Assembly: GCA_024402475.1 (NCBI GenBank) | Contig: JAKSTQ010000003.1 | Span: 101,831-165,830 of the forward strand | DNA: 64,000 nt | Origin: Treponema sp. | GTDB lineage: Bacteria; Spirochaetota; Spirochaetia; Treponematales; Treponemataceae | Direction: 5' to 3' | Part shown: positions 46,682-51,694 of the stretch, one piece after another | Numbering within the stretch: the first letter of the stretch is position 1 | Layout: the number at the start of each line of letters is the position of its first letter | Notes under the pieces: generated by a model | Told to the model about the DNA's origin: nothing | What the model saw: the letters and a program-made list of their open reading frames with translations, nothing else | Database searches by the model: none | Program-made: the position numbers and the translations under genes

Positions 46682-48136
46682 TTAGATTCCCTCGGCTTCC
46701 TGCTTGAGGGAATCAAGATGATTTAATATTTTCTGATCCAATGTAATGCTCAGGTTCTTTTCCTGTGACGGAAGTACAAGTCCTTTTGGACCGTTTTTTG
46801 CACGGCGCAAATGTTTAACCTGAGTATAATACAAATCTGCTTTTCCCTGCTTGCGTGCCTTTGAGTAATAAACTGCAAGGTTTCCTGCGGCAAGCATTAT
46901 TTCAAGAGGAATTGTTTTTCCTGCCCTGTATTTCACAAAAACATAACCGCCCGGACAGTCACGGGTATGGAACCACATATCACTGCCGCGGACATGTCTT
47001 CGTAAAAGTTCATCGTTTTCGTTTGCGTCACGTCCTACAAGAATGTACCAGCCGTCGATTGTGTAATCAAGGCCGGGATGAGATTTTTCTTTCTGCTGTT
47101 TTGGTTTTGTATCCTTACGCAGCATCTGTTCAATTTTAACAGGATTTTTTTCTGCAAGCATTGCCTTGTATTCTTTATCAAGGCGTTCAATTTTGTGTCT
47201 TGTATTTTCGATGTCAGTATCAAGCTGTTCAAGGCCTGAAATTTCTTTTTTGTAAGCTTCGTAATATACCTGGGCATTTTCGTGTACTGACTTTTTAGGA
47301 TCGATTTTAATCTGAATGGTTTTGCCTGTTTCGTAATCTTCGCATTCAAGAAAATTTGAGCCTGTGGTTATGTTGTGGCCAAAGGACGTGATTAAATCGC
47401 CCTGATGTTTTTTCTGGTCTGCGTGACTGAAATCTTCTTTTTTCTGCAGAAGTTTTTCAAGCGCTGATTCAAGTTTTGAGTGATGTGTGTTGTACCAGCG
47501 TTCGCAGCTTTCCAGAAGTGCTTCGCGGCTTAAGGAACTTGCATATTCACTGTAATAGATGTCGATTTTCTGGTTAAAGGTGAGGGGACTGTGACCCGGA
47601 TGTTCTTCAAGGAATTTCTGTTCAAGCTGCGAAAAATCTCTTACCGGGAATTCTCTCTGCGGTTTTGAAGGGTCAATAACGGGCTCATCAAAATGTCCCA
47701 GAGTTTTTTCATCTTTTCCAGGACGGCGGAACATCGTATCAAGGATCGTGCCGTTTGTGTCAGTAAGAATGATGTTGGCAGCCGATGACCATAATCTTAT
47801 GTAAAGAAAAAATTCTTCATCCCCGCGCTTTAGTTCCATTTTGATAATTCGTTCAAGACCAATCTGTGCGCAGCTGTTTATTCTTGCGCCTTTGATTCTT
47901 GACTTTAAGAATTCCATAAAGCGCAGAGGTTTTTCATTTTTTGGAATTTTTCTGTTAGTTGAATTTATTCTGCAGCCGCCGTTTGCAATACAGATTAAAA
48001 GAGTAATTGGAGTTGCTTCTTTGTAAAGATAAAGTGCAAGGGTGTCAAATCCAGGCTGAATTACATCTTGAATAAAACAGCCTGTGACATCAAGTTCTTC
48101 AAGAACTTTGTTTATTTCATTGCAGTTTAGGGACAT
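46682..48136 (-). CDS. NFACT-family protein (RqcH-like ribosome quality control factor)
   Basis: 484 residues. NFACT-N region (1-170; GFDTLALYLYKEATPI, AQIGLERIIKMELK), central helical coiled-coil (190-345) and NFACT-R domain (YILVGRDANENDELLRRHV, DMWFHTRDCPGGYVFVKY). RqcH/Rqc2 proteins bind stalled 50S-peptidyl-tRNA and add Ala tails. The usual GLDRI/GFDRI motif reads GLERI here (Asp to Glu at the functionally important position). It is shorter than B. subtilis RqcH (about 570). The start overlaps the upstream gene by 20 nt. Its end carries a 9-bp hairpin (46685-46714) facing the helicase stop. Confidence 0.85.
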   Translation of the reverse strand: MSLNCNEINKVLEELDVTGCFIQDVIQPGFDTLALYLYKEATPITLLICIANGGCRINSTNRKIPKNEKPLRFMEFLKSRIKGARINSCAQIGLERIIKMELKRGDEEFFLYIRLWSSAANIILTDTNGTILDTMFRRPGKDEKTLGHFDEPVIDPSKPQREFPVRDFSQLEQKFLEEHPGHSPLTFNQKIDIYYSEYASSLSREALLESCERWYNTHHSKLESALEKLLQKKEDFSHADQKKHQGDLITSFGHNITTGSNFLECEDYETGKTIQIKIDPKKSVHENAQVYYEAYKKEISGLEQLDTDIENTRHKIERLDKEYKAMLAEKNPVKIEQMLRKDTKPKQQKEKSHPGLDYTIDGWYILVGRDANENDELLRRHVRGSDMWFHTRDCPGGYVFVKYRAGKTIPLEIMLAAGNLAVYYSKARKQGKADLYYTQVKHLRRAKNGPKGLVLPSQEKNLSITLDQKILNHLDSLKQEAEGI

Positions 48137-49433
48137 CTGTATCCGCCAGTTTTTCTATGAGTTCTTTTGTTTTGTGTGTCTGTTCAAACAAACGCTGTGC
48201 AAGCATTTTTGAAAGGAAAATACCATAGTGTGGATTCAGACGGATCATGTTAAGGAATTCAATTTTTGGAATTCTGATGAGGCGGCAGTTACCGCTTGCA
48301 AGAATTGTTGCTGAACGTCTGTCATTCAACAGGAACGACATTTCACCGATGAACATATCATTTGGTGTTAATACAGAAACAAGTTTGCGTCCTGAATAAA
48401 CTGCGTATTTTCCTGAAACAATAAAGTAAAGGTCATTTGTCTTTTCGTTTTCGCGGCAGACAACGTCTTTATCTTTGAATGTAACTGTTTCGTAAGTTTT
48501 CATTACACCAGGAATGTAGTTTGATTCATCAAGCTGGTTGCGGATGCGCAGTGTCACCTGATTTCCTTTGTCGTTATATGCAATCTGCTGAATCATGTCT
48601 TTTGAAAGATTGATTCCGCGTCCATGAAGTTCATCAGCCTGAGCTTCTTCTTTGCCTTCAAGATATTTGCGCCAGTCAAAACCATCACCGTCATCAGTAA
48701 TGGAAAAAGTTGAATGGTGACGGGTGATAAAATAAGAAAGAGTAATCTTACGGTCTTTGTATTTTTCTTCCCTGCGTTTCTGGTCAATCAGAGTAACAAT
48801 ATCTCCGTGTTCTTCCATGTAAGCAGTTTTTTCTGCATAGGAAATTTCAAGGTTACCGTGTTCGAGTGCATTGTTCAGAAATTCACTTAATGCAATCTGA
48901 AGGTTAACTCTTGTTTCTGCATTAATGCGGTTTGTATTGTAAAGATAACTTACAAGGAAAGTTGAATAAAAGTGAATGTCCAGAAGATCATTATCAAAAG
49001 TAATTGAACCAGATTCTTCCGGAGCAAATGGACTTTGAATTCCGCGGTGAAAAATAAACTGCTGGTTTGTAAGAGTAATATGCAAAAGTCGTGAAAAGTT
49101 CTGAATGAATTCACTTAATGTAAGAACGCAAAGAATGTTTTTGTCCTGCTGTTCTTCAATTTCCTGCTTTTTTTTCATGTCATCACAAACCGCAATGATA
49201 CCGCCGTAGTGAAGCCATGGATCTGCGTTAATTGCAGAAAGAATGGTTTCGCAGTCTGTGTTTTCAGAAGTATAGTCAAGGATTTTCACTTCTGGAAGTT
49301 CATAGTTGATATAGTTAATGACTTCGAGAGTTTCCCACAGGAATTCGCCGTCAAAAGCTTTATATTTAGGAAGTTCTTTTTTTACGGTTTCAATAACTTT
49401 TTCGTTTGAAGAAATAGTAAGAATCTTTTTCAT
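48117..49433 (-). CDS. Signalling protein: pseudo-receiver, HATPase (RsbW-like) and cNMP-binding domains
   Basis: 438 residues. Residues 1-115 look like a degenerate receiver (MKKILTISSNEKVIETVKK, LDYTSEN). A histidine-kinase-like ATPase at about 160-295 has N-box ALSEFLNNALEHGN and G1 ITDDGDGFDWRKYL plus GRGINLSKDMI, closest to anti-sigma RsbW-type kinases. A cyclic-nucleotide-binding barrel at about 310-425 has YFIVSGKYAVYSG and GEMSFLLNDRRSATILA. No DNA-binding domain. It may integrate a nucleotide signal with a partner-switching pathway. TTGGAG lies 7 nt before the ATG. Confidence 0.82.
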   Translation of the reverse strand: MKKILTISSNEKVIETVKKELPKYKAFDGEFLWETLEVINYINYELPEVKILDYTSENTDCETILSAINADPWLHYGGIIAVCDDMKKKQEIEEQQDKNILCVLTLSEFIQNFSRLLHITLTNQQFIFHRGIQSPFAPEESGSITFDNDLLDIHFYSTFLVSYLYNTNRINAETRVNLQIALSEFLNNALEHGNLEISYAEKTAYMEEHGDIVTLIDQKRREEKYKDRKITLSYFITRHHSTFSITDDGDGFDWRKYLEGKEEAQADELHGRGINLSKDMIQQIAYNDKGNQVTLRIRNQLDESNYIPGVMKTYETVTFKDKDVVCRENEKTNDLYFIVSGKYAVYSGRKLVSVLTPNDMFIGEMSFLLNDRRSATILASGNCRLIRIPKIEFLNMIRLNPHYGIFLSKMLAQRLFEQTHKTKELIEKLADTDVPKLQ

Positions 49434-49591: not shown

Positions 49592-49656
49592 GTTTTCCTG
49601 GAACTGGAGTTTTCTGCAGTAACATTAAAAAAATTAAGTTTAATTCCATTTTTATC

Positions 49657-49686
49657 TTGACAATTCAGTTAAAAAAACACTAAAAT
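49657..49686 (+). promoter_or_regulatory. Promoter of the ilv leader and ilvB
   Basis: -35 TTGACA (49657-49662), 18-nt spacer, -10 TAAAAT (49681-49686). The predicted start (about 49693) is next to the leader-peptide ATG at 49694. Confidence 0.78.
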
Positions 49687-49693
49687 AATTCAC

Positions 49694-49774
49694 ATGAATA
49701 CTTTATTAATTCTTTCAATTCAGGCTGTTCTCGTCGTCGTCGCTGTTAAAAGCGTGGCAAGAGCATTTGTGTAA
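49694..49774 (+). CDS. Branched-chain amino-acid leader peptide of ilvB
   Basis: 26 codons, MNTLLILSIQAVLVVVAV then KSVARAFV. Thirteen are Leu (4), Ile (2) or Val (7), with the run VLVVVAV at codons 12-18, as expected for a peptide whose translation senses charged tRNA-Val/Leu/Ile. No Shine-Dalgarno precedes it, and the promoter puts the transcript start on or within a base of the ATG, so translation should be leaderless. The stop (49772-49774) lies 8 nt beyond the antiterminator arm, so a ribosome reaching it would cover that arm. Too short for routine gene calling. Confidence 0.88.
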   Translation: MNTLLILSIQAVLVVVAVKSVARAFV

Positions 49775-49858
49775 TTGAAGGTTTAATAAAACTTAACTTT
49801 CAGAAGTTTTAAGGTGTTTAATAGGACGCCTTGGAAAATAACAGAGCTCTTCGCCATG
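49753..49858 (+). promoter_or_regulatory. Antiterminator pairing of the ilvB attenuator
   Basis: CGTGGCAAGAGC (49753-49764, leader codons 20-24) pairs with GCTCTTCGCCATG (49846-49858) through 12 base pairs with one bulged C (49852) and one G-U. This removes the 5' arm of the terminator. A separate small hairpin (49787-49794 with 49804-49811) lies between the arms. Confidence 0.75.
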
Positions 49859-49878
49859 ACGTAAGGGCTCTTTTTTTT
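49843..49878 (+). terminator. Attenuator terminator upstream of ilvB
   Basis: AGAGCTCTT (49843-49851) pairs with AAGGGCTCT (49863-49871), one G-U, 11-nt loop, followed by eight T. It lies between the leader peptide and ilvB and is mutually exclusive with the antiterminator. Confidence 0.9.
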
Positions 49879-49930
49879 GGCAAAAGACTTTTATGTTAGC
49901 GGACTGCAGACTAATTTTAGGAGTATCAAA

Positions 49931-51694
49931 ATGAAAAAAACAGGTGCACAGATTATCACAGAAATCTTGAGGAAGTTTAAGATTGATATGGTAGCCGGAA
50001 TTCCAGGCGGATCAATTCTTCCACTTTATGATGAATTAAATCGCAGCGGTATTAATCACGTCCTTGTGCGCCAGGAACAGGCAGCTGGTTTTATTGCTCA
50101 GGGAATTGCCCGTACAACAGGAAAACCAGCAGTATGTTTTGCAACTTCAGGTCCTGGAGCAATGAACCTTTTGACTTCAATTGCAGATGCCCGCAGTGAC
50201 AGTGTTCCTATTATTGCAATTACAGGTCAGGTAAATCTTTCACTTATCGGAACAGATGCATTCCAGGAAGCAGATACATTCGGGCTTTCTTTCCCGATTA
50301 CAAAACACAGCGTTATGGTTAAGTCTGCAAAGGAACTTCTGACTGTTTTGCCTGAAGCTTTTAATATTGCAATGAATGGCCGTCCAGGTCCTGTACTTAT
50401 TGATGTTCCTCGTAACGTTCAGCTTGAAGAATGTGAATTTGATTCATGGCCAAAATGTGAAATTCAAAAATCAGATGTAAGATTCCATACAGATAAAAAA
50501 CAGATGGCACAGGTTTGTAAAGAAGCAGCTATGGCTTTGTGCAAAGCAGAACGCCCTGTTCTTTACCTTGGAGGCGGCTGTAATACATTTGAAGGCGCAA
50601 AGGCTTTTAAAGATTTCTTAAGCGTTTACCAGGCTCCGGTAGTTTCAAGCCTTATGGGAATCGGTGCTGTTCCTGCAAGTTATAAAGGAAACATGGGAAT
50701 GGTTGGTATGCACGGAAGTGTTGCTGCAAACCGCGCAATGCATGATGCTGACCTTGTACTGGCATGTGGTGTCCGCTTTGATGACCGTGCTATCGGCCTT
50801 AAAGATAAATTCTGTCCTAACGCAAAAATCGTTCATATTGATATTGATGCTGCAGAAATCAATAAAATTATGACAAGCGACCTTCATCTTGTAAGTGATG
50901 TTGAATCAGCAATTCCTGTAATTACAGAAATTCTTCGTGAAGCTGCAAATTCAAAATCAAAAGGAAAGGCAGCAATGGATATCAAGGAAACTGCTCCAGA
51001 ACGCCAGACCTGGATGAGCAAAATGGTAGAATGTAAAATTGCAACTTTCAGTGTAAACTGCGGTATCGATAAAAAATCAAAGGCAGCCAATCCAAGAAAA
51101 TTTATTGCTGATGTTCCTGAACTTGCAAAAGCAGCAGGTACAAAACCTTCTGATATTATCGTAACAACAGATGTTGGCCAGCACCAGATGTGGGCAAGCC
51201 AGTACTATCCTGTAGAAGATGCAAGAACATTCCTTACTTCTGGTTCTCTTGGAACAATGGGATTTGGTCTTCCGGCTGCAATTGGTGCTGCTCTTGCAAA
51301 TCCTAAAAAACATATTGTATGTTTTTCTGGTGACGGTTCCATCATGATGAATATTCAGGAACTTGCAACTCTTGCAGAACGCAACCTTAATGTTACAATT
51401 ATCGTTCTTGAAAATGGAACTTTGGGAATGGTTTACCAGCAGCAGAAACATCTGTTCAATAAAAATTACAGTGCAAGTATTTTTGAAAAGACACCTGACC
51501 TGCTTGCAATTGCAAACGGTTTTGGTATTGAAACTTTTGATGCTGACGGGGACACAAAAGGGCAGTGGGCTAAAAAAGTATTTGATCCTAAACGCAAGGG
51601 TCCGGCTTTTGTACGAATCCACGTAAGTCAGGAAGAAGATGTTCTGCCGTTTGTAACAGCAGGTAAAGCAAATATTGATGCTATTGTAAACTAA
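49931..51694 (+). CDS. ilvB: Acetolactate synthase large (catalytic) subunit
   Basis: 587 residues from the ATG at 49931, which has AGGAG 7 nt upstream; a frame extending to 49877 would begin in the terminator U-run. TPP enzyme: catalytic Glu in VRQEQAAGFIAQG, SGPGAMNLLTSIADA, a central FAD/DHS-like domain, and TPP/Mg2+ motif GDGSIMMNIQELATL ending in LEN. It forms acetolactate or acetohydroxybutyrate, the first step for valine, leucine and isoleucine. No ilvN regulatory subunit or other ilv gene is adjacent. Regulated by the upstream attenuator. Confidence 0.95.
   Translation: MKKTGAQIITEILRKFKIDMVAGIPGGSILPLYDELNRSGINHVLVRQEQAAGFIAQGIARTTGKPAVCFATSGPGAMNLLTSIADARSDSVPIIAITGQVNLSLIGTDAFQEADTFGLSFPITKHSVMVKSAKELLTVLPEAFNIAMNGRPGPVLIDVPRNVQLEECEFDSWPKCEIQKSDVRFHTDKKQMAQVCKEAAMALCKAERPVLYLGGGCNTFEGAKAFKDFLSVYQAPVVSSLMGIGAVPASYKGNMGMVGMHGSVAANRAMHDADLVLACGVRFDDRAIGLKDKFCPNAKIVHIDIDAAEINKIMTSDLHLVSDVESAIPVITEILREAANSKSKGKAAMDIKETAPERQTWMSKMVECKIATFSVNCGIDKKSKAANPRKFIADVPELAKAAGTKPSDIIVTTDVGQHQMWASQYYPVEDARTFLTSGSLGTMGFGLPAAIGAALANPKKHIVCFSGDGSIMMNIQELATLAERNLNVTIIVLENGTLGMVYQQQKHLFNKNYSASIFEKTPDLLAIANGFGIETFDADGDTKGQWAKKVFDPKRKGPAFVRIHVSQEEDVLPFVTAGKANIDAIVN

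Follow-up and report, generated by a model that had tools for sequence, protein, structure and literature searches.

The ivbL-ilvBN attenuator of Escherichia coli comprises a Val-rich leader and a terminator located before ilvB, and we know of no description of the ivbL leader as leaderless. The ilvB locus of Treponema sp. presented here resembles this system by its leader, made mostly of Val and Leu codons and followed by a terminator and ilvB, the likeness of the two leaders being one of Val-richness judged by eye. The IlvB proteins of both organisms also belong to one supported clade (100/99). On the other hand, the ivbL leader has a different sequence without a similar Leu-Val core, and ilvN follows ilvB in E. 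coli, whereas ilvB is followed here by adk on the other strand.

In Corynebacterium, ilvB-II/ilvBNC is described as being preceded by an upstream ORF (uORF) of 15-17 codons rich in branched-chain amino acids (BCAA), with a terminator and an antiterminator that were tested experimentally (PMC10272879, PMC11857589). The Treponema locus shares with ilvBNC the BCAA leader, the terminator, the antiterminator and the leaderless start, the last being a prediction in our case. The corynebacterial system differs by its phylum (Actinobacteria), by its ilvBNC operon and by the reported length of its uORF. The ilvB-OMG motif, described from various phyla, similarly displays a BCAA-rich uORF before ilvB (PMC10272879), and is likened to our locus by description only. 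The same holds for the Leptospira ilvB motif, which also places a BCAA-rich uORF before ilvB in a spirochaete. This motif was earlier listed as a weak riboswitch candidate (PMC8632094), then proposed to be an attenuator, its uORF having at least three consecutive Val codons (PMC10272879). It counts seven representatives, leaving little room for covariation according to its authors, and the uORF, which is also Thr-rich, stands about 70 nt before the gene (PMC8632094, PMC10272879). As described, it thus differs from the Val/Leu leader presented here, whose stop codon lies 156 nt before ilvB.

A preliminary description of the Treponema locus knew of no such control in spirochaetes. This view stands for Treponema, as no attenuator of this type was found for the genus in a literature search that left most subscription papers outside, but not for spirochaetes as a whole, given the earlier Leptospira proposal (PMC10272879).

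Layout and predicted working of the ilvB element

The window, that is, the whole stretch of DNA analysed, covers 64,000 nucleotides of contig JAKSTQ010000003.1. Before its ilvB gene, the leader ORF, the terminator and an antiterminator excluding it would form together a classical, ribosome-mediated transcription attenuator sensing charged Val- and Leu-tRNA, a reading to which we give a probability of roughly 0.87 from sequence analysis. The element and its gene comprise the following features.

49657..49686, plus strand: promoter, with TTGACA (49657-49662), an 18-nt spacer and TAAAAT (49681-49686); generic promoter scan, layout repeated in relatives
49694..49774, plus strand: leader ORF of 26 codons, MNTLLILSIQAVLVVVAVKSVARAFV, from ATG 49694 to TAA 49774; direct reading, match to covariance model R1 (see below) of 60.4 bits
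49730..49741, plus strand: control codons CTC GTC GTC GTC, codons 13-16; codon conservation in relatives
49741..49754, plus strand: protector hairpin (1:2), CGCT (49741-49744) with AGCG (49751-49754); weak alone, compensatory change across relatives
49753..49764, plus strand: arm 2, the antiterminator 5' arm; folding and arm-swap test
49807..49836, plus strand: additional hairpin of 13 bp within the long linker, predicted for either state; folding and alignment
49846..49858, plus strand: arm 3, the antiterminator 3' arm, overlapping the terminator 5' side; folding
49843..49878, plus strand: intrinsic terminator, hairpin 49843-49871 and T tract to 49878; direct reading, folding and compensatory change
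49919..49923, plus strand: AGGAG, Shine-Dalgarno-like sequence of ilvB; direct reading
49931..51694, plus strand: ilvB, acetolactate synthase large subunit, 587 codons; TIGR00118 at 597.4 bits for a cut-off of 538.35

The 3' side of the protector hairpin overlaps arm 2, and the linker is longer in the window than in the other aligned sequences. Since the upstream gene and the downstream adk are both on the strand opposite to ilvB, the latter stands alone in the window. Upstream, two overlapping genes on the minus strand (46682-48136 and 48117-49433) point away from ilvB; one of them is weakly like RqcH/fibronectin-binding proteins and the other weakly CRP-like at its C-terminus.

In the proposed mechanism, transcription would start at the leader ATG or no more than a few bases away, so that the ribosome would initiate on a leaderless 5' AUG. 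If charged Val- or Leu-tRNA ran short, it would stall at CTC-GTC near codon 13 and cover the 5' side of the protector; arm 2 would then pair with arm 3, blocking the terminator and allowing ilvB to be transcribed. When charged tRNA is plentiful, the ribosome would reach the stop codon and cover arm 2, upon which arm 3 would pair with arm 4 and transcription would end before ilvB.

Direct reading bears out the bases on which the preliminary description relied, namely a 26-codon ORF with 13 Leu/Ile/Val codons and the run VLVVVAV at codons 12-18. The terminator was also found as described, its hairpin reaching -12.8 kcal/mol, and so was the alternative pairing of 49753-49764 with 49846-49858, which has 12 bp and one bulged C and whose 5' arm begins 5 nt past the final codon of the VLVVVAV run. 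In the window, the duplex between the leader region and the terminator 5' arm (-19.5 kcal/mol, z -4.4) is equalled by 0 of 300 shuffles, and the RNA that a stalled ribosome would leave exposed (49749-49885) adopts the antiterminator fold at -40.6 kcal/mol, matched by 0 of 200 shuffles. Other parts taken singly are less telling. The protector hairpin alone is not significant, 61 of 200 shuffles being as good (p 0.05 in a longer stretch), shuffled sequence yields 0.9 promoters like TTGACA-18-TAAAAT per region, and a generic terminator scan of the window called no terminator at 49843-49878. The strong evidence for the element is thus to be found in its relatives rather than in the window alone.

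Distribution and covariation in the genus

IlvB is present in 97 of the 98 genus genomes searched. By scanning and reading 82 stretches upstream of ilvB (L002-L083, of which two measure only some 100 nt), convincing leaders were recognized in 23, all with an intrinsic terminator between leader and gene, and 59 were left without one; an ORF in L061, first counted as a leader, had been removed by eye ahead of this count. After exclusion of two near-duplicates, 21 leaders were aligned (alignment A2) to build the covariance model R1, which contains the terminator as its sole helix. R1 gave 61 matches of at least 41 bits over 200 genus genomes, one per genome, 21 in genomes that had supplied the model and 40 in genomes that had not. 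Directly before residue 1 of IlvB stand 57 of these matches, the other four ending at contig ends; the placement was tested by tblastn for 51 matches (47 before ilvB, four at a contig end) and known from the earlier upstream survey for ten. All 51 newly fetched matches hold a Val/Leu-rich ORF, and 55 distinct leader ORFs occur among the 61 matches.

No R1 match of at least 41 bits was obtained in 139 of the 200 genomes, a count in which strict filters may miss divergent leaders, and no leader was seen in some ilvB genes of such genomes read by eye. Together with the 59 stretches mentioned above, these genomes indicate that the element is not shared by the whole genus. As regards a wider regulon, none of 17 weaker R1 matches, taken from a longer list, has ilvB within about 600 nt. 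Many genus genomes (e.g., G018:C23) also encode another acetolactate synthase large subunit, which shares about 42-46% identity with the product of the window ilvB and falls in the other IlvB clade of a 48-protein tree; G426:C41 and G421:C1:933674 are further cases of a second subunit.

Compensatory change is observed in the protector, antiterminator and terminator helices. Column counting was avoided because bulges shift the register. As shuffle tests on single loci are mostly weak (antiterminator p at most 0.01 in 6 of 23, protector p at most 0.1 in 18 of 37), an arm-swap test was used instead, comparing the pairing of arms from the same genome with that of arms from different genomes over 37 representatives of 58 sequences, the truncated L214 being excluded. 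Own and swapped arms reach -14.07 and -11.41 kcal/mol for the antiterminator, -15.6 and -13.2 kcal/mol for the terminator and -6.2 and -4.2 kcal/mol for the protector, with 0 of 20,000 permutations as good in each case, and a control pairing the adjacent stretch with the same arm gave p 0.97. Because R1 holds the terminator helix alone, the alignment was not fitted to the antiterminator or the protector.

The spacing of these parts is also kept. In all 21 leaders compared, 16-27 nt separate CTC from the start of arm 2, and the stop codon lies 6-7 codons past CTC in 18 of them and 14-17 codons past it in the three others (window, L003, L014). As the distance to arm 2 is maintained though the stop codon moves, the geometry follows the control codon and not the stop. 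With the ribosome edge assumed to lie 12 nt downstream from the first nucleotide of the codon in the A site, antiterminator pairing in the RNA before arm 4 is predicted to be higher when the ribosome is stalled at CTC-GTC than when it is at the stop codon in 35 of 37 cases. Once arm 4 is present, even a stalled ribosome is predicted to leave the terminator favoured at equilibrium in 33 of 37 cases, so that most relatives would need a kinetic switch, while four, including the window, would switch at equilibrium. The ribosome-free RNA of the window is predicted to favour the antiterminator, which makes a default termination driven by the protector doubtful there.

Past the stop codon and ahead of the terminator, alignment A3 reveals in many relatives (e.g., L164) a conserved TGTTATATNNTTTGTGATNA-type stretch, flanked by A/T-rich complements and possibly forming a small hairpin inside the antiterminator loop. 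No stretch of this type is present in the window, whose linker holds the different 13-bp hairpin listed above.

The conservation pattern of the element bears on whether a ligand-binding RNA (T-box, ppGpp or other riboswitch) governs the terminator, the small ORF being incidental. Such genes are reported to be controlled by T-boxes and ppGpp riboswitches in Firmicutes (PMC10272879), but the conservation here tracks codons and three simple arms, and the only window matches at gathering score among 4227 Rfam families are two tRNA genes, the best weak match within 49600-49960 being PyrR (22.1 bits for a cut-off of 54). A model of the Leptospira ilvB motif, if Rfam includes one, is not among the matches at gathering score. 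This explanation is therefore very improbable. T-boxes and known riboswitches were rejected as candidates, as no Rfam covariance model reaches the gathering score at the locus.

Control codons and probable leaderless start

CTC occurs in all 55 distinct leaders, its last occurrence being codon 13 in 48, codon 12 in five and codon 14 in two, and it is followed by GTC in 44. The share of GTC among Val codons is 157/346 in leaders versus 32/508 in 12 ilvB genes, and that of CTC among Leu codons 57/174 versus 36/516. Codons ending in C represent 214 of the 520 Val and Leu codons of leaders and are rarer among the other four-fold codons (16 of 199), so that the bias towards GTC and CTC is not a general taste for C.

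This conservation at the codon level, of synonyms far outnumbered by others in ilvB genes, speaks against an arrest peptide, in which a nascent V-K/T-V-V-x-V-L-V core, with an amino-acid ligand or none, would stall the ribosome in place of uncharged tRNA and act on the same downstream RNA switch. Outside the genus, moreover, leaders keep Val and Leu but not this core. An arrest peptide would agree with the nearly fixed distance from start to CTC and with the conserved non-BCAA residue of the core, encoded five codons before CTC by AAA in 27 and ACA in 18 of the 55 leaders. On balance, it appears improbable, and classical attenuation is the preferred reading. Indeed, the attenuation logic advanced in the preliminary description is supported by control codons conserved at a fixed distance from the start and by compensatory change in the three helices; the comparison of related treponemes that it called for thus brought both covariation and conserved Val/Leu codons. 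It overlooked the conservation of CTC and GTC as such and the link, discussed below, between an IlvB subfamily and leaders in other phyla, as well as the missing ribosome-binding site of the leader and the promoter running into its start codon.

The tRNA genes were surveyed in four genomes, namely G076 (2 contigs), G015, G129 and the window's own genome (82% complete). TAC was the only Val anticodon found in the four; all of them carry Leu tRNAs with TAA, TAG and CAA, and three also have CAG. Neither Val-GAC nor Leu-GAG was found in any of them, so that neither GTC nor CTC is matched by a fully Watson-Crick-pairing anticodon in these four genomes. G015 has an extra Leu-AAG tRNA that could read CTC. 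The latter belongs to a group of 18 tRNA genes within about 2.1 kb (C11:293670-295745, L414), present besides the ordinary chromosomal set and looking like the tRNA array of a mobile element. Three tRNA-like matches were left unnamed by ARAGORN, i.e., L297, with the anticodon CAT according to its alignment, L427 of G015, with GGC as read by eye, and a third, in G129, truncated by the end of its contig. Judging from these gene sets, the decoding of GTC, and that of CTC in three of the four genomes, probably depends on U34 wobble.

In the selective charging model, as presented in PMC1183508, biased control codons are explained by competition between isoacceptors. In the surveyed genomes, where Val has one tRNA species (anticodon UAC), such competition cannot account for the choice of Val codons. 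A tentative alternative, which we consider possible though less likely than not, is that the set point of the attenuator comes from the codon and not from which tRNA is charged, the slow U34-C decoding of GTC and CTC at a fixed distance from the leaderless start setting the stall. No report of wobble-only control codons was found in the literature searched, to which most subscription papers did not belong, and this codon feature may be the part that is new.

The leader ORF is probably leaderless, its transcript beginning at about the ATG, as suggested by promoter spacing. In the window, the -10 hexamer ends 7 nt before the leader ATG. Among relatives, 49 of 55 leaders have a TTGAC located 34-46 nt upstream of their ATG, compared with 1.1% in shuffles, and in 44 of 54 the best -10 hexamer stops 6 or 7 nt short of the ATG. 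No Shine-Dalgarno-like motif precedes the ATG in 52 of 55 leaders, window included, whereas such a motif precedes 47 of 51 ilvB ATGs (against 3 of 55 leader ATGs). The L020 leader has a TTG start codon and reaches into the promoter predicted for it, which makes its start doubtful. Leaderless mRNAs are reported to be common in Leptospira (PMC5243855), and the ilvBNC transcript of C. glutamicum to start one nucleotide from the leader start codon (PMC11857589). A similar situation is described for the trpL attenuator RNA of Sinorhizobium meliloti, which has the leader ATG as its 5' end (PMC7298713), as predicted here, although trpL is devoted to Trp control and belongs to another phylum.

Leaders beyond the genus and their significance

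Similar leaders stand before ilvB in G421 (same family), in G347 and G414 (same class) and in Spirochaetes bacterium UR.bin61 (L085). A further member of the class, G262, has a similar leader before a more distant ilvB, and none was seen before ilvB of G426. By eye, the promoter also runs into the start codon in G421, G414 and L085. In the class survey, which included 31 upstream stretches picked from the 74 of 248 class genomes with a match, most of the inspected stretches had no visible leader.

In the 48-protein tree, Treponema ilvB falls in a 27-row clade (support 100/99) that includes E. coli IlvB together with other Proteobacteria, Fibrobacteres, Bacteroidota, Myxococcales and one Fusibacter. 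The paralogous second IlvB that Treponema and its family encode lies apart from this clade. Upstream regions of 45 of the 48 rows were screened for a leader plus a terminator, leaving out L332 (contig end) and L337 and L112 (upstream stretch not prepared). Positives amount to 18 of 26 clade rows versus 3 of 19 outside (Fisher p 0.0007), a comparison to be taken as descriptive because the rows are related and those of Treponema were selected when their leader state was already known. Outside the clade, L104 and L106, which make up two of the three positives, display what we take to be a leader of the ilvG type. In a separate reading of upstream stretches, in which the E. coli leader was recovered as a positive control (L095/L096), Val-rich leader ORFs are seen before ilvB in records of Fibrobacteres, Bacteroidota and Myxococcales (L097, L098, L100), of which the stricter leader-plus-terminator screen retained L097 and L098 and not L100.

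Only 1 of 450 shuffled upstream regions passed the same screen. An unregulated arrangement, in which a constitutive promoter and a leaky terminator would accompany a small ORF arisen by chance, could account for promoter-like sites, expected as they are 0.9 times per such region, but hardly for this screen result, the conserved codons, the fixed geometry and the compensatory change in relatives, and is the least probable of the explanations considered. The element is confirmed as real and beyond chance, a chance ORF being ruled out by the conservation in relatives and by the screen.

A transfer of ilvB and its leader from enterobacteria was also considered and rejected, as the Treponema proteins group in a clade of their own, fully supported and placed beside the proteobacterial one, not inside it. 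The motif NAKLL, common to one group of Treponema leaders and to E. coli IvbL, is taken as a coincidence.

The Treponema ilvB attenuator is thus new as an example, the attenuator type and leaderless leader peptides being already known. What this analysis would place in Treponema is a complete three-helix leader-peptide attenuator, with a covariation support beyond what the Leptospira motif allowed. Similar leaders extend to other spirochaete families, and leader-type control appears tied to one IlvB subfamily across phyla. The four genomes with one Val anticodon also offer a natural test of control-codon choice against selective charging. Altogether, this textbook switch is likely to be used in these spirochaetes too.
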